A stretch of DNA of 64,000 nucleotides, taken from positions 25,608-89,607 of the forward strand of contig JAGAQC010000004.1 in NCBI GenBank assembly GCA_017622925.1, read 5' to 3'. The DNA comes from Ruminococcus sp. Lineage in GTDB: Bacteria; Bacillota; Clostridia; Oscillospirales; Ruminococcaceae. The first letter of the stretch is position 1. Each line of letters opens with the position of its first letter. Position numbers and translations under genes: made by a program. Shown piece after piece: positions 25,698 through 56,034 of the stretch. The notes under the pieces were generated by a model, which did no database searches, had not been told where the DNA came from, and saw nothing but the letters and a program-made list of their open reading frames with translations.

Positions 25698-28010
25698 ATG
25701 ATCTGGCTTATGATAGGGGCTATGTTCGCAGGATCGCTTTTTTTGGCATGCTGTACTGCATACGGCATTGTTAATCTGAAAGACAACCCGTTGGAGCATT
25801 ACGTTAGGCGAGCTTTGTCCTGCGCCGCAGTCGTTACGGCAGCCAATGCAGCCGCAATGCTCATGCCCGACGAAACTTCGGCTTTGTTTGTTTTCGGGAT
25901 CTACAATATTTTTGAAACGTTTACCGTTATGTCTCTGCTTTCGTTTGCTCGTCACTATCTGGGACATTCCGGCGGTCTCGGCAGGATAAGGCTGCCCGTT
26001 TTCATAATTGCAGGCGTTGACAGCCTGTTTATGCTCCTGAATGTATTCTTGAAGTTCTCGTTTAAAGTGGAAAATTTCGACGCAGGCTTCGGGAAAAGCT
26101 TGTTCAGAGTTTGCGACTACGGTCTGCTTTATTGTATCCATTCGGGTTTTGTTGTATCCATGATGACCGCTGTGCTTATAATGCTGCTGCACAGAATGCT
26201 TACCGCTCCGAAGGCATACGCTATAAAGTACAGCTCGGTGTTCCTGACGCTTTTAGCGCTCGTTGCCATAAGTATACTTCATATCTACCTGAAACTGCGT
26301 TTCGATTATTCAATTGCGCTTTATTCCGCAGAGGGATTTATAATTTTCTATTATTCCCTGCTTTACGTCCCGAGAGGTCTCATGGAACGGCTTATGTTCT
26401 TCACTGTTGCAAATATGAAGGACGGTATGATCTGCATTGATATTGACGGCAGGATAGTTCAGGCAAACAAGGCTGCAAAGGATTTCTGCGAGGCGGATAT
26501 AGACGTTCAGACGCTTGAGGAACAGGTCAGACGCTGGAAAAGAGACGATGTTGACGTTGAAACGTCTGTCCATATATGGGAAACAACACGGCGAATTTCA
26601 GGCGAAAAACGCTACTATACGATCGAGTACAGACGTATTTACGACAGTTACGCAAAATATTTAGGGTGCTTTTTCCTTGTTCACGACAGGACGGAGGAGG
26701 TCGTTAAATTCAACGCCGAAAACTACCGCGCTACCCACGATAAGCTTACGGGGCTTTACAATAAGGAATACTTCTTTGAACTGGTGGAAAAGCTTCTTAA
26801 AGATAATCCTGCGGAAAAATATAATATTATCGTTACGGACGTTAAAAACTTCAAAATCGTAAACGACGTTTTCGGCGTTGACGAGGGCGACAGACTGCTG
26901 AAAAAAATTGCCGAGATAACAATGAAATTCGGCGGAAACTACTGTATCTACGGCAGACTTACAGGCGACCGCTTCGCCCTGTGCATTCCGAAAAACCGAT
27001 ATTCCGAGGAAAAGCTTCTCAGATGCTATTCTGTGGCTGATTCCTTTATTGAAAACGCGTCCTTCAAAACGCATATCCATATCGGCGTATACGAGGTCAC
27101 AGACCGAAATATCAGAGTTTCCGTCATGTGCGACCGCGCCAATCTTGCTATCCGCACGATAAAGGACAGCTTCCGAAGCCGTGTCGCCTATTATCAAAGC
27201 GAGCTGAGAGAGAACTTTATCGGCGATCACCGCATTATCAGCGAATTTGAAACGTCAATTGCAAACGGGCATTTCCGCCCGTATATCCAGCCTCAGATCG
27301 CCGCCGACGGAAGTATCAGAGGCGGAGAAACGCTTGTCCGCTGGCTTCATCCCGAAGAAGGAATGATACGTCCCGACAAGTTCATAAAAATATTGGAGCA
27401 GACAGGTCTTATCAGCCGTCTTGACAAATATATGTGGGAGCTTGCCTGCGTACAGCTAAAACGCTGGACGGAAATGGGACTTAAAAAGAGCTATTTATCA
27501 GTTAATATTTCTCAGAAGGACTTCTATCTTCTTGACGTGTTCGAGATAATTACATCGCTTGTGAAAAAGTACGATATAGCGCCGAAAAGACTTCATCTTG
27601 AAGTCACGGAAACAGCTATCATGGATAATCCCGAAAACCACCTCCGACTTATTGCCAAGCTGCGCAAGCACGGCTTTATTGTGGAAATAGACGATTTCGG
27701 CAGCGGCTATTCGTCGCTGAATATGCTGAAAGACCTTGACGCCGACGTGCTGAAGATAGATATGGGATTCCTACAGAAAACGCAGAATCAGGAGAAAAGC
27801 AGAACTATTCTTAAAATGATTATTTCACTGGCAAAGTCGCTGAAAATGGAGGTCATTACCGAGGGCGTGGAAACTATCGAGCAGGTAAGGTTTCTGGCAG
27901 AGTACGGCTGCGACGTCTATCAGGGTTACTATTTTGCTCAGCCTATGCCTGTGGACGAGTTTGAGAGCGGCTACCTTAACAAACGTTTCAGAATGAGAGG
28001 GAGCAGCTAA
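25698..28010 (+). CDS. Membrane GGDEF/EAL protein, probable c-di-GMP phosphodiesterase
   Basis: 770 residues. N-terminal multi-TM sensor region (about seven segments, residues 1-220), a PAS-like domain (about 230-330), GGDEF (about 345-495) and EAL (about 510-760). The GGDEF active loop is degenerate: GRLTGDRFAL in place of GGDEF, so synthesis of c-di-GMP is unlikely. The EAL domain looks intact: GGETLVRW (Glu and RW retained), NISQKDF, EVTETAIM, DDFGSGYSSL, KIDMGF and EGVET. It should therefore hydrolyse c-di-GMP in response to a membrane signal. It is the first gene of an operon with the ADP-ribosyltransferase-like, ThrE-like and lipoprotein genes (gaps of 3, 9 and 24 nt). Confidence 0.88.
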   Translation: MIWLMIGAMFAGSLFLACCTAYGIVNLKDNPLEHYVRRALSCAAVVTAANAAAMLMPDETSALFVFGIYNIFETFTVMSLLSFARHYLGHSGGLGRIRLPVFIIAGVDSLFMLLNVFLKFSFKVENFDAGFGKSLFRVCDYGLLYCIHSGFVVSMMTAVLIMLLHRMLTAPKAYAIKYSSVFLTLLALVAISILHIYLKLRFDYSIALYSAEGFIIFYYSLLYVPRGLMERLMFFTVANMKDGMICIDIDGRIVQANKAAKDFCEADIDVQTLEEQVRRWKRDDVDVETSVHIWETTRRISGEKRYYTIEYRRIYDSYAKYLGCFFLVHDRTEEVVKFNAENYRATHDKLTGLYNKEYFFELVEKLLKDNPAEKYNIIVTDVKNFKIVNDVFGVDEGDRLLKKIAEITMKFGGNYCIYGRLTGDRFALCIPKNRYSEEKLLRCYSVADSFIENASFKTHIHIGVYEVTDRNIRVSVMCDRANLAIRTIKDSFRSRVAYYQSELRENFIGDHRIISEFETSIANGHFRPYIQPQIAADGSIRGGETLVRWLHPEEGMIRPDKFIKILEQTGLISRLDKYMWELACVQLKRWTEMGLKKSYLSVNISQKDFYLLDVFEIITSLVKKYDIAPKRLHLEVTETAIMDNPENHLRLIAKLRKHGFIVEIDDFGSGYSSLNMLKDLDADVLKIDMGFLQKTQNQEKSRTILKMIISLAKSLKMEVITEGVETIEQVRFLAEYGCDVYQGYYFAQPMPVDEFESGYLNKRFRMRGSS

Positions 28011-50995: not shown

Positions 50996-52081
50996 ATGGA
51001 TAACAAGAAAAATACCATAGACGCTCTTATCGAACAAGGACAGGCTCACGGCAAACTTACAACAAAGGAGATCACCGATGCCCTTGAGGAGCTTGATTTT
51101 GACGTTGACCAGATCAACAGCTTCTACGACCGCTGTGAAGCTCTCAATATAGAGATAGTCGAGGACATGAACGTTGATACGGACCTTAAGATCGGTCTGG
51201 ATTCCACTATAACCGACGATCTCGAAATGGCGCTCTCCACTGAGGGTATCGCCATTGACGACCCTGTAAAGGTGTACCTCAAGGAGATCGGACGTGTTCC
51301 GCTTCTTGCAACGGAGGAGGAGATCGAGCTTGCCCAGCGCATGATGAAAGGCGACCGCTATGCTAAAAAACGCCTTTGCGAAGCCAACCTCCGTCTTGTT
51401 GTAAGCATCGCCAAAAAATATGTGGGCAGAGGTATGCAGTTCCTCGACCTTATTCAGGAGGGTAACTTAGGTCTTATCAAGGCTGTGGAAAAGTTCGACT
51501 ACACCAAAGGATTCAAGTTCTCAACATACGCAACATGGTGGATACGTCAGGCTATTACAAGAGCTATCGCCGATCAGGCAAGGACTATCCGAATCCCAGT
51601 TCATATGGTGGAAACTATTACCAAGGTCAAAAAAGTCTCCTCGCAGCTCCTCCACGAAAACGGTCACGACCCAAGTCCCGAGGAGATCGCAGATAAACTC
51701 AATATGCCCGTGGACAAGGTACGCGATATAATGCGTGTTGCGCAAGACCCTGTATCTCTCGAAACTCCTATAGGCGAGGAGGAGGACAGCCACCTCGGAG
51801 ACTTTATTCCCGATGACGACGCCCCTGCTCCTGCCGAAGCTGCCTCCCATACGCTTTTAAAGGAGCAGCTTAACGAAGTCCTCAACACTCTTACCGAACG
51901 GGAAGCAAAGGTTCTTAAACTCCGCTTCGGTCTCGAGGACGGCAAAGCTCGTACTCTTGAAGAAGTCGGTCAGCGTTTTGACGTTACACGGGAGCGTATA
52001 CGTCAGATCGAGGCAAAGGCGCTCCGTAAGCTTCGCCACCCCAGCCGCAGCAAAAAGGTCAAGGATTTTCTGGACGAATAA
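50996..52081 (+). CDS. sigA: Primary sigma factor SigA (RpoD)
   Basis: 361 residues, the size of Firmicute SigA. Region 1.1 (about 1-75), region 1.2 [17 protein letters not shown], region 2 with [38 protein letters not shown] and [13 protein letters not shown], region 3, and region 4 helix-turn-helix [30 protein letters not shown]. It directs core RNA polymerase to the -35/-10 promoters listed here. The dnaG-sigA gap (50881-50995) holds two hairpins (about 50889-50906 and 50907-50942). Confidence 0.98.
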
Positions 52082-52142
52082 TGCGGTTGTTACATAACCC
52101 TTGTATTTGTTAAATCAATTTATCAGTATCAAAGGAGTTGCC

Positions 52143-54878
52143 ATGAGTATCTTTAACCTGTCAAAAGAACCGCCCGAGCTTAGTCGGGATTGGACTGTCT
52201 TTCAGCAGTTTGTCGGTAATATAGGCGCTTTTACATATATCGCCAAAGATAAGACCGCCTATCTCGACGACGCTGCCTGCCGCATGCTCTCATGCTCGGG
52301 CAATAAACTGAATGAATTTGAGTTCTTTAATCTGCTGGAGAAAATTTCCAAAATGCCCGTCGAGGGTCAGAAGCACATTTACCGCTTCACTACAAATAAT
52401 ACGACCAAATTCATTAAAATGAACATCTACGAATCCAGCGATGAATGGCTGGGCTTCGTTCAGGATTTTACACGGCAGATCTCACAGGTACAGGAAAACT
52501 CTTTCATGGAGTACGACCCTGTGACAAAGCTTCCCTCGTATCCTTCGTTTTCTCAGCATATAAAAAAGCTGCTTCCCGATGTGCAGAATGCCTGCCTTGC
52601 CACTCTTTACATCAACGGCATTGAAAAATTAGGCTCTTTCCTCACCGTTGACAGCACAAACTGCTGCATCGCTTCTGTTTCCGAGGTTATCAAGGGCTTT
52701 GCAGGGAAAAATGTCTTTATCGGCACAAAATCGGGCTACGAGCTGCTTGCTTTCTTCAAGGACTGCGACAGAATGTTCATATATAACATTCTCAACAGTA
52801 TGGACGAGGCTGTAAGAAACTGCGTGCTTACCGATGATTTCGGCGAAATTATCGACATTTCCGATAAAAGCAAGCTCAGTCTGTCCATTGGCTGTTCTTC
52901 CTATCCAAACGAAGCCACGGATTTCAATATGCTGGTGAATTACTCCGAATTTGCCCTCTATGAAGCCCGTACAGACTGCCGCCACGTTATAAACTGGTTC
53001 TCGGAAGAAAATTATATCCGTGAAAAGGACGCTTACAAAAACGCTCAGATTTTCAACAGAATGATTATGGATAATCAGCTGACATATCACGTTCAGCCTA
53101 TCGTTGAGACTACTACCGGAAACATAGTGGCTTATGAAGCTCTTATGAGAAGCGTCGGCGATGTTAAAATGGAACCCAAGCAGATACTCGCTATTGCGGC
53201 AACTCAAAATTCCCTGTACGCCATCGAAAAGCTCACCTTCTTCAATACCCTGAAGCTCCTCAGCGAAAATCAGCAGGTTTTCGAGAATAAAAAGCTGTTC
53301 ATCAACTCTATGTGCGATTACACTCTCAACGAAGAAGATTTCAACGAGCTTTACCTGACCTACGGAGAACTTCTTGAAAAATGCGTTATCGAAATAGTGG
53401 AGGACAGCTCCGCTACTCCCGAAACTATTGACCTTATAAAAAAACGTCTGAGCTTTACTCATGCGCAGCTTGCCATTGACGACTACGGCACAGGCTACTC
53501 CAACAGCACAAATCTGCTGAAATACCGTCCCGATTATGTGAAGATCGACCGTTCTCTCATTTCCGACATTCACAACGATATGAAAAAACAACAATTGGTT
53601 ACGCAAATAATCGAGTTCTGCCGTGATAATCAGCTTCGCACGCTTGCCGAGGGCGTTGAAACATCTCAGGAAATGAAAACTGTTATCCGACTCGGTATAG
53701 ACTACATTCAGGGCTACTACACCTCTAAGCCGAAGCCGCTTTTCCTTGACAGCATTTCAAAGGACATCAAGGACGAAATTATCAAAACAAATCTTGAAAT
53801 TCGCCCGACAGGTTCAAAAAAGATCTATACGGCGCAGAACGATACGGAACTTGATCTTCTTAAACTTGCTCTTGAAAAGTATACCGATATACACATATAC
53901 CAAAGTAAGCTGACTATTGTCGGAGACCCTGACAAGGCTGTGAAAATGAACATAACTATTATGGACAATCATAGCTGCGAGCTTACCCTTAAAAACGTCA
54001 ATATCGTCAGCGGAAACGGCAAACCGACCATTTCCGTAGGCGAATACGCTCGTCTTGTACTCAATGTTTCAAGAGCAAACAAACTGGGATATGCAGGTAT
54101 TTACGTACCAATGGGTTCGCAGTTTGAGCTTAGGGGCAAAGGCTCTCTGACTATCGACTGCTACGCCTCTTACGGCATCGGTATAGGAAACGATTACGAC
54201 CACGGCTACGGAGATATTGCCGTTGATATGGAAGGCTCTCTTGAAATTATATGCAACGGTCTGGAAACAGTATGTATAGGCGGCGGCTATAATGAAGATG
54301 ATTCTGAAATAAAGCTTAATTCCGGAAACATCAAAATATATATGTACAGCCACAACGGTATTGCGATCGGAAGCTTCAACGGCGACGCAAATATCGAAAT
54401 GTCCGAAAACTGCAAGCTCGATATGACTATCTCAGGCATAAAGATAACAGGTATCGGAAGCTGCCGCGGCATCGCAACAATTGCAAGCTCCGCTGATATT
54501 TCGCTTTCATGCAGCGGCGCTCAGGCGGTCGGTATCGGCGTTCTGGAGGACGGCGAGGGAAGCATTCTTATCCGCAAGGGCAAAATAGGAGTGAAAATGA
54601 ATTCCGCAAAGCAATCCTGCATCGGAGCTATCGGCGGAAGCGTCAACACTAAGATCATGAACGCCGAAATAACTATCGACTCCGAGGGTGACATTGCGGT
54701 AGGTATCGGCGACTGTCAGGGCAGCGGAAACGTATTTATCATGGATTCCGCTATCAACATGAAAATGCTCTGCGCCAATCCCCGTGACATCTGCTCGGGT
54801 TCGGGAGATGTTCAGATACAAAATTCAACCATTAATTCTCTCGTCAACAACAAGCGCATAGAACACAAAAGCAACTGA
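52143..54878 (+). CDS. Degenerate GGDEF plus EAL protein fused to a C-terminal repetitive beta domain
   Basis: 911 residues from ATG 52143 (AAAGGAG 5 nt upstream). No signal peptide or membrane segment is visible. PAS-like N-terminus (about 1-115), degenerate GGDEF (about 120-285, with GTKSGYELLAF at the active loop), EAL (about 305-540: YEALMR, EIVEDSS, IDDYGTGYSNST, KIDRSL, AEGVET). The last 350 residues or so consist of about ten imperfect repeats of 30-35 residues, each with an alternating-hydrophobic strand pattern and a G(I/V)G(I/S/V) turn such as AVGIGDCQGSG, TGIGSCRGIA, IAIGSFNGDA. This looks like a right-handed beta-helix as in Cthe_2159-like carbohydrate-binding proteins, here apparently cytoplasmic. 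c-di-GMP hydrolysis is possible; the EVTE-type Glu context is altered. Starts 61 nt after sigA. Confidence 0.8.
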   Translation: MSIFNLSKEPPELSRDWTVFQQFVGNIGAFTYIAKDKTAYLDDAACRMLSCSGNKLNEFEFFNLLEKISKMPVEGQKHIYRFTTNNTTKFIKMNIYESSDEWLGFVQDFTRQISQVQENSFMEYDPVTKLPSYPSFSQHIKKLLPDVQNACLATLYINGIEKLGSFLTVDSTNCCIASVSEVIKGFAGKNVFIGTKSGYELLAFFKDCDRMFIYNILNSMDEAVRNCVLTDDFGEIIDISDKSKLSLSIGCSSYPNEATDFNMLVNYSEFALYEARTDCRHVINWFSEENYIREKDAYKNAQIFNRMIMDNQLTYHVQPIVETTTGNIVAYEALMRSVGDVKMEPKQILAIAATQNSLYAIEKLTFFNTLKLLSENQQVFENKKLFINSMCDYTLNEEDFNELYLTYGELLEKCVIEIVEDSSATPETIDLIKKRLSFTHAQLAIDDYGTGYSNSTNLLKYRPDYVKIDRSLISDIHNDMKKQQLVTQIIEFCRDNQLRTLAEGVETSQEMKTVIRLGIDYIQGYYTSKPKPLFLDSISKDIKDEIIKTNLEIRPTGSKKIYTAQNDTELDLLKLALEKYTDIHIYQSKLTIVGDPDKAVKMNITIMDNHSCELTLKNVNIVSGNGKPTISVGEYARLVLNVSRANKLGYAGIYVPMGSQFELRGKGSLTIDCYASYGIGIGNDYDHGYGDIAVDMEGSLEIICNGLETVCIGGGYNEDDSEIKLNSGNIKIYMYSHNGIAIGSFNGDANIEMSENCKLDMTISGIKITGIGSCRGIATIASSADISLSCSGAQAVGIGVLEDGEGSILIRKGKIGVKMNSAKQSCIGAIGGSVNTKIMNAEITIDSEGDIAVGIGDCQGSGNVFIMDSAINMKMLCANPRDICSGSGDVQIQNSTINSLVNNKRIEHKSN

Positions 54879-54939: not shown

Positions 54940-56034
54940 ATGAAACTTGGCATGGTAGGTCTGCCCAATGTAGGCAAAAGCACTCTTTTTAACGCACTCA
55001 CAAACGCCGGAGCGGAGTCCGCAAACTATCCGTTCTGCACCATTGAAAAAAATATCGGTATCGTGTCCGTACCCGACGAGCGTCTTGATAAGCTCGCCGA
55101 AATGTACGAACCCGATAAGTTTACTCCCGCAACCCTTGAATTCGTTGACATTGCTGGTCTTGTAAAGGGAGCTTCAAAGGGCGAAGGACTGGGAAACAAG
55201 TTTCTTGCCGATATAAGAGAGGTGGACGCTATTGTTCACGTTGTACGCTGCTTTGAGGACGACAACATCGTTCACGTTGACGGCAGCATCAATCCGCTTC
55301 GTGACATTGAAACTATCAATCTCGAACTTATCTTCTCCGATATTGAAATGGTTGATCGCCGTATCGACCGAGCAAAAAAGGCTGCTAAGGGCGATAAAAA
55401 ATTCCTTGCGGAGATAGACTTCCTTGAAAGGCTCAAAGCTCACCTTGAAGCAGGAAAATCTGCAAGAGGCTTCGATTTTACCGAGGACGAGCGCGAACTG
55501 ATAAAGTCCACTCCCCTGCTCTCGGCAAAGCCCGTTATCTACGCCGCTAATCTCTCAGAAGCCGATTTCTCAGGCAACATCGAAAATAACGAGAATTTCT
55601 GCAAGGTACGCCGTCTTGCGGAGGAGGAAAACTCTGCCGTACTGCCTATCTGCGCTCAGACAGAAGCCGAGATAGCCGAAATGGACGAAGAGGACAAGGC
55701 AATGTTCCTTGCCGAGCTTGGACTTGAAGTTTCGGGTCTTAACCGTATTATCAAGGAGGGCTATGCGCTTTTGGGACTTATTTCGTTCCTTACCGCAGGT
55801 AAACCCGAGGTCCGCGCATGGACTATCAAAAAGGGAACGAAAGCTCCCCAAGCGGCAGGAAAGATACACACCGACTTTGAAAAAGGCTTTATCCGCGCGG
55901 AGGTCGTAGCCTTCAACGATCTTATGGAATGCGGCTCAATGGCTGCCGCTAAGGAAAAGGGACTTGTCCGTCTTGAGGGCAAGGAGTACGTTATGAACGA
56001 CGGCGACATCGTTCTTTTCCGTTTCAACGTTTGA
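54940..56034 (+). CDS. ychF: Ribosome-binding ATPase YchF (Obg family)
   Basis: 364 residues, normal length. G1 GLPNVGKSTLFNAL, switch region FVDIAGLVKGASKGEGLGNKFL, a coiled-coil insertion (about 125-200), and C-terminal TGS domain (FLTAGKPEVRAWTIKKGTKAP...). The NKxD motif is replaced by YAANLSEADF as in YchF, which explains preference for ATP over GTP. It binds ribosomes and influences stress and redox responses. AAAGG precedes the ATG. Confidence 0.96.
   Translation: MKLGMVGLPNVGKSTLFNALTNAGAESANYPFCTIEKNIGIVSVPDERLDKLAEMYEPDKFTPATLEFVDIAGLVKGASKGEGLGNKFLADIREVDAIVHVVRCFEDDNIVHVDGSINPLRDIETINLELIFSDIEMVDRRIDRAKKAAKGDKKFLAEIDFLERLKAHLEAGKSARGFDFTEDERELIKSTPLLSAKPVIYAANLSEADFSGNIENNENFCKVRRLAEEENSAVLPICAQTEAEIAEMDEEDKAMFLAELGLEVSGLNRIIKEGYALLGLISFLTAGKPEVRAWTIKKGTKAPQAAGKIHTDFEKGFIRAEVVAFNDLMECGSMAAAKEKGLVRLEGKEYVMNDGDIVLFRFNV

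Follow-up and report, generated by a model that had tools for sequence, protein, structure and literature searches.

Can a beta-solenoid switch or position a second-messenger enzyme within the cell? EAL enzymes are usually regulated by the domains in front of them, and the ruminococci are important fibre degraders. The question is raised by a gene of Ruminococcus sp. lying in a 64,000-nucleotide stretch of contig JAGAQC010000004.1, the whole of which is called the window here. An earlier note on this DNA had described its product as a c-di-GMP-type EAL protein fused to a large, apparently cytoplasmic repeat domain resembling a beta-helix.

A single reading frame and its neighbours

The gene occupies positions 52143..54878 of the forward strand as one open frame of 911 amino acids, which comprises an N-terminal domain, a degenerate GGDEF, an EAL domain and a C-terminal solenoid. 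A scan of genome contigs yielded 110 relatives, the best 80 of which were kept; 76 of these 80 are named as Ruminococcus, including R. flavefaciens FD-1 and ATCC 19208. The start at 52143 is supported because a ribosome-binding site, AAAGGAG, could be read just upstream (52131..52137, forward strand) and because 77 of the best 80 of the 110 relatives align from residue 1, the remaining three being truncated by contig ends. All 77 start with ATG, and GGAG was found within 20 nt upstream of the start in 73 of them. The frame is continuous in 76 of the best 80 relatives, the other four again being truncated by contig ends, and a frameshift or an annotation artefact was therefore rejected.

The absence of an export signal and of a membrane segment, as read by the earlier note, also held. 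Judged from hydropathy, the highest 19-residue mean is 1.13 and no hydrophobic N-terminal stretch is present; on this basis we rejected the idea that the window protein carries a concealed export signal or is anchored in the membrane.

Upstream lies sigA (50996..52081, forward strand; named by the earlier note and by eye) and downstream a YchF-type GTPase gene (54940..56034, forward strand; named by eye). The position directly after sigA is true for the window, but sigA is co-oriented upstream in only 41 of the 65 relatives, among the best 80 of 110, whose left flank extends for 1500 nt or more, and it was discarded as a defining trait. The ychF gene is found downstream and co-oriented in 76 of the best 80 of 110; of the four that lack it, three run out of sequence within 137 nt, and the fourth (L143) has 777 nt without ychF. 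The constant neighbour is thus ychF and not sigA. We found no terminator-like site in the 61-nt gap between sigA and the gene, so that read-through from sigA is possible.

Domains in front of the solenoid

The N-terminal domain (residues 1-118; 52143..52496, forward strand) is conserved in the orthologs, with a mean pairwise identity of 0.77. The earlier note had called this region PAS-like, and although a resemblance to PAS can be seen by eye, the databases lent it no support: with E values up to 10 admitted, none of 21 orthologous N-termini matched a PAS family of Pfam, and a PDB profile search with the domain gave no relevant match, returning one unrelated chain at E 0.64.

It is followed by the GGDEF region (residues 124-278; 52512..52976, forward strand), which matches Pfam PF00990 at E 2.4e-4 with a borderline score, 21.3 bits in one search and 24.3 bits in another against a cut-off of 23.8. 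Its degeneracy, also claimed before, extends to the orthologs: the GG[D/E]EF signature of active diguanylate cyclases is absent from 65 of 65 aligned sequences, which read SNYEI, SGYEL and similar in its place.

The EAL domain (residues 304-530; 53052..53732, forward strand) was verified, with a match to PF00563 at E 3.4e-48 and 164.5 bits, the gathering score being 31.3. All ten residues of the catalytic set are present (E332, N388, E417, D446, D447, K467, D469, E503, E506 and Q523), to which, from EAL enzymology, we take catalytic or metal-binding roles to belong. Of the 65 aligned orthologs, counting the window, 64 retain the full set; it is likewise intact in 22 of 22 other fused proteins and in a further 17 of 17, a count that leaves out L255 (EAL at 646-883). 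The exception among the orthologs comes from one species: L193, whose protein is also that of G030, carries N388S, D447N and D469G and retains its solenoid. With the EAL set intact and the GGDEF signature dead, the protein should destroy c-di-GMP and not make it, and is predicted to be a c-di-GMP-degrading enzyme. The source genome, which is 88% complete, holds three EAL matches, 12 GGDEF matches (11 of them above cut-off) and one solenoid of the window kind.

The C-terminal solenoid and its relatives

Residues 582-911 (53886..54875, forward strand) can be divided into about 12 coils, the first of which were placed by eye. Searches of Pfam and NCBIfam that admitted E values up to 1 gave no match to this part of the protein. 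Seven coils, each opening with an IG turn and repeating with a period of 27-31, span residues 680-882 (54180..54788, forward strand). The longest chain of IG pairs spaced by 26-32 residues has seven members (681-712-742-771-798-827-855), and in 20,000 shuffles of residues 601-911 the longest chain had at most six. A repeat domain with recurrent turns, as the earlier note had it, is thus present, but its period is 27-31 and not 30-35, and its coils cover about 330 residues. From the homology described below and from the periodicity, we infer that the domain folds as a beta-solenoid.

Among orthologs within the genus the mean pairwise identity is 0.71 for the solenoid and 0.77 for the EAL. The solenoid is nearly as conserved as the enzyme, and is therefore under constraint. 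Its conserved residues lie mainly in turns, and there are conserved loops too, for example residues 681-692. Invariance across all 25 aligned solenoids is limited to 11 Gly, one Val and one Asn, so that no single shared ligand is indicated.

The solenoid profile also matched loci without an EAL in the class sample, at E 5.1e-11 and 6.3e-10. One of these encodes a protein of 2474 amino acids that has a signal-peptide-like start by eye and matches Pfam Beta_helix_3 (PF18889). When the window solenoid was compared, profile against profile, with 11 secreted-type stretches (five of them from this 2474-aa protein, and some found with the same kind of profile), the probability was 98.3% and the score 108; the reversed profile gave 61% and a score of 41, and five shuffles scored 15 or less. 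Four stretches found only through PF18889 gave 97.3% and a score of 89, and 85.5% and 50 on reversal. The reversed scores are not negligible, which means that composition and period contribute, and the forward scores are well above them. By these profile comparisons the window solenoid is homologous to exported proteins of the Beta_helix_3 type, whose repeats carry GIGGG. The window protein itself has no Pfam match to PF18889 at E up to 1.

In amino-acid make-up, the window solenoid has 3.4% Cys, 18.8% KRDE and no Trp, and the 25 fused solenoids have 2.3%, 20.5% and 0.1%, respectively. The corresponding values for the secreted set are 0.5%, 10.8% and 1.1%. This is a small set of 11 stretches, five of which come from a single protein, and one member, L196, overlaps the fused solenoids with a KRDE content of 17.5%.

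In PDB profile searches, 4peu was the top match both times, weakly (E 0.024 and 0.047) and over about 135 residues; 2v4v appeared in one of them at E 0.065. We take 4peu to be Cthe_2159. According to PMC6712302, Cthe_2159 proteins form beta-helices and bind both cellulose and polygalacturonic acid. The Pfam Cthe_2159 family (PF14262) does not match the window protein. The likeness to secreted carbohydrate-binding repeats that had been proposed earlier is consequently borne out as far as homology to exported proteins goes, but the carbohydrate link is weak, given the E-values of 4peu and the lack of Trp.

The EAL-solenoid unit

All 14 strong matches in the class sample other than the window carry an EAL domain in frame and directly before the solenoid; in the family sample the same is true of 18 of 18 loci (20 were fetched, two of which were cut by contig ends). 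What precedes the EAL varies. In some proteins it is a LacI-type sugar-binding domain with a middle region, either with or without a GGDEF; in others, N-terminal membrane helices with a GGDEF that is weak or degenerate, a short leader (about 80-90 residues), a GGDEF without any sensor recognised by Pfam (L247, L259), or nothing that Pfam recognises (L250, L251). The window type, with its N-terminal domain and dead GGDEF, adds a further variant. In the membrane-anchored relatives the hydrophobic stretches lie before both the EAL and the solenoid. We considered whether the GGDEF region of the window is common to all fused proteins, and rejected this, the LacI types having a different middle region (hhalign 0.11%). 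That middle region matches the middle of the types of about 1280 amino acids at 100% and is GAF-like by eye only.

The joint is nearly invariant in length. Counted between the catalytic Gln and the column at which the solenoid begins (residues 523-560; 53709..53822, forward strand), it is 38 residues long in 22 of the 23 fused proteins and 47 in one. A constant length argues for a rigid joint and not for a flexible tether, and the joint is probably helical. Among 16 paralogs of the LacI size class, 15 have the 38-residue joint and all 16 have an intact catalytic set. Pfam detected a sugar-binding front end in 8 of the 8 that were run, namely five of the 16 together with L242 (which starts at a contig end, its front end being cut), L254 and L255. 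Two paralogs in G015 are broken between the EAL and the solenoid; were the joint indispensable in every case, such breaks would be surprising, unless those genes are dead.

In a midpoint-rooted tree built from 30 of 82 EAL matches and six other loci, and including one identical pair (L103 and L241), the fused EALs (28 rows, against 35 unfused) are all confined to one side of a single branch with support of 97/88; this fits a single fusion without proving it. Pairwise distances of EAL and solenoid are correlated across 20 proteins (r 0.911; equalled in 0 of 5000 permutations). The EAL-solenoid unit thus looks like the product of one fusion, in front of which sensors would have been exchanged. 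The nearest unfused EALs in the tree are four proteins of the genus, L071-L074, of about 1013-1035 amino acids; a solenoid was sought in them and ruled out, as no match was found.

Among seven loci of LacI-type size that were read in the genus, three (L063, L075 and L076) adjoin a LacI-GGDEF gene. The neighbour of L065 is a GGDEF gene, that of L064 is a 776-aa frame that matches EAL, and that of L082 is an ABC-transporter gene; L066 has a GH11/deacetylase gene on one side and a dockerin gene on the other.

Occurrence of the fusion

Sixty genomes were searched whole: the source genome, 35 of the same genus and 24 from other families. An ortholog is present in all 35 genomes of the genus (Ruminococcus, R. 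flavefaciens group), four of them partial at contig ends. The solenoid was found in 34 of the 35, the G004 contig stopping before it, and in none of the 24 genomes from other families. In the class sample the solenoid profile matched 15 of 391 genomes, the source genome included; besides this one, 12 have EAL-solenoid proteins and two (G231 and G381) have matches without an EAL in frame. In the family sample 38 of the 197 genomes matched, which represent 21 of the 125 genera, or 34 genomes and 19 genera, the source included, when only strong matches (E below 1e-50) are counted. There were up to five matches per genome, those below this strength being weak and some lying in long frames. In a phylum sample five of 398 genomes matched. 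Three were already known, and the other two (G552 and G752) matched weakly, in proteins whose starts look, by eye, like signal peptides.

EAL and solenoid were read together in 17 genera, 15 in the family and two outside it. The fusion is therefore a recurring module and not a peculiarity of the window protein, and throughout these genera a large domain without a Pfam or NCBIfam model is joined to the EAL.

Role of the solenoid

At a probability of roughly 0.55, we favour the reading that the protein is a soluble c-di-GMP phosphodiesterase in which the C-terminal, cytosolic beta-solenoid serves as a regulatory or docking element. The EAL domain would hydrolyse c-di-GMP, the dead GGDEF would act as a regulatory and perhaps GTP-sensing domain, and the front end would sense one input. 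The solenoid, held directly behind the EAL by a fixed and probably helical joint, would provide a second regulatory surface; by docking a partner or assembling the enzyme, it might set where or when c-di-GMP is lowered. The EAL-solenoid unit would be kept whole, while LacI-type sugar-binding domains, membrane anchors and other sensors are swapped in front of it. Docking or assembly is a role that we infer by elimination, and since the invariant residues point to no shared ligand, docking or regulation was ranked first and glycan sensing second. Some observations sit uneasily with this reading, namely the loss of three catalytic residues in L193, which nevertheless keeps its solenoid, the split between EAL and solenoid in the two G015 paralogs, and the reversed-profile controls at 61% and 85.5% together with the charge-rich L196.

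It is possible, if clearly less probable, that the solenoid is an intracellular glycan sensor, for example of an imported oligosaccharide or a stored polysaccharide, and that its occupancy gates the EAL. Homology to secreted repeat proteins would fit such a role, as would the LacI-type sugar-binding front ends of the sister proteins and the one LacI-type-sized gene situated between GH11/deacetylase and dockerin genes, but the 11 Gly, the Val and the Asn that are invariant in 25 solenoids make no shared binding site visible, and Trp is absent from the window solenoid. The top PDB match, 4peu, would point to a family that binds cellulose and polygalacturonic acid (PMC6712302), but only at E 0.024 and 0.047 and with no Pfam Cthe_2159 match beside it. 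A bolder version, to which we attach somewhat less belief, is that an exported-type, polysaccharide-binding beta-solenoid entered the cytosol once and became rigidly fused to an EAL, giving rise, in gut bacteria that degrade fibre, to a family of c-di-GMP phosphodiesterases gated by glycans inside the cell. If this were true, the LacI-fronted members would read two carbohydrate signals and would tie fibre breakdown to attachment.

We consider it unlikely that the solenoid is a mere folding or dimerisation block, which would stabilise the dimer of the EAL and itself receive no signal. The constant length of the joint and a conservation that lies mainly at turns would both be expected of such a block, but 330 residues at 71% mean identity, with conserved loops, seem to exceed the needs of a clamp, and the 35 unfused EAL rows of the tree manage without one. 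Export or surface exposure by an unrecognised route, with the solenoid binding fibre outside the cell, is very improbable: the solenoid relatives begin with signal-peptide-like stretches (by eye), but the window protein has no hydrophobic start or membrane segment, its solenoid is richer in Cys and charge than the secreted set, the hydrophobic stretches of the anchored relatives precede both EAL and solenoid, and the EAL substrate is cytosolic.

Comparison with known systems

Searches of the open-access PubMed Central literature on c-di-GMP in Ruminococcus and on EAL with a beta-helix retrieved no EAL-solenoid fusion, and the consulted part of an AI-2 receptor paper (PMC9540692) contains nothing on one. 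EAL signalling with a C-terminal solenoid partner is thus apparently undescribed in the open-access literature searched.

Three kinds of known proteins, and one kind of paralog, come near to the window protein. To Cthe_2159 (PF14262, 4peu) the solenoid has a weak profile match, at E 0.024 and 0.047 only, and no Pfam match. The GIGGG-repeat proteins of Beta_helix_3 (PF18889) are matched by it at the profile level. Several of those read have signal-peptide-like starts by eye and their coils are rich in Gly, Thr and Asn, whereas the window solenoid shows no export signal, is richer in Cys and charge, and stands behind an EAL. The LacI-type paralogs, of about 1113-1307 amino acids, share the complete EAL-solenoid unit and differ in their sugar-binding front end, which comes with or without a GGDEF. 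With the tandem GGDEF-EAL phosphodiesterases such as DosP and PA0861, the window protein has in common the order of GGDEF then EAL and the ten catalytic residues. The NCBIfam and PDB matches listed for the GGDEF-EAL class end at or before residue 558 of the window protein, and what sets the window protein apart from these tandem proteins is the extra C-terminal solenoid of 330 residues, placed at a fixed distance behind the EAL.

Among the fused proteins, in which the EAL domain directly precedes the beta-helix-type solenoid, the earliest branches in an EAL tree rooted at its midpoint were two membrane-anchored relatives, L110:2207-5269 and L111:2155-5193. Membrane-anchored forms were also observed at L253, L256-L258 and L261, and all of these relatives carry hydrophobic stretches at the N-terminus. 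The tail beyond the solenoid measured 52-64 residues in the five examined. At three other loci (L063:4703-6670, L075:16-1977 and L076:4592-6499), a gene coding for a LacI-type sugar-binding domain joined to GGDEF adjoins a LacI-EAL-solenoid gene, and these neighbours appear to form a sugar-sensing cyclase/phosphodiesterase pair.

One ortholog of the window protein (L193:3345-6080) retains the solenoid, while its EAL domain lacks the catalytic residues N388, D447 and D469. Its phosphodiesterase is likely to be inactive judging from these residues, and the protein may serve as a c-di-GMP receptor. Two broken short-type paralogs in genome G015 (L069:1923-3959 and L070:2283-4351) each consist of separate EAL and solenoid frames, with the break near the EAL-to-solenoid joint, caused by an in-frame TAG in one and by overlapping frames in the other. 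Either both genes are dead, or the fusion is made here as two separate proteins.

The window encodes a further GGDEF-EAL protein in a 770-aa frame (about 26631-27953, + strand), which was not among the solenoid matches. A match to Beta_helix_3, the secreted GIGGG-repeat family homologous to the solenoid at profile level, was observed in one of the 24 genus genomes searched, counting the window's own: G021 encodes a secreted-type GIGGG-repeat protein at L195:273-1409 (- strand).
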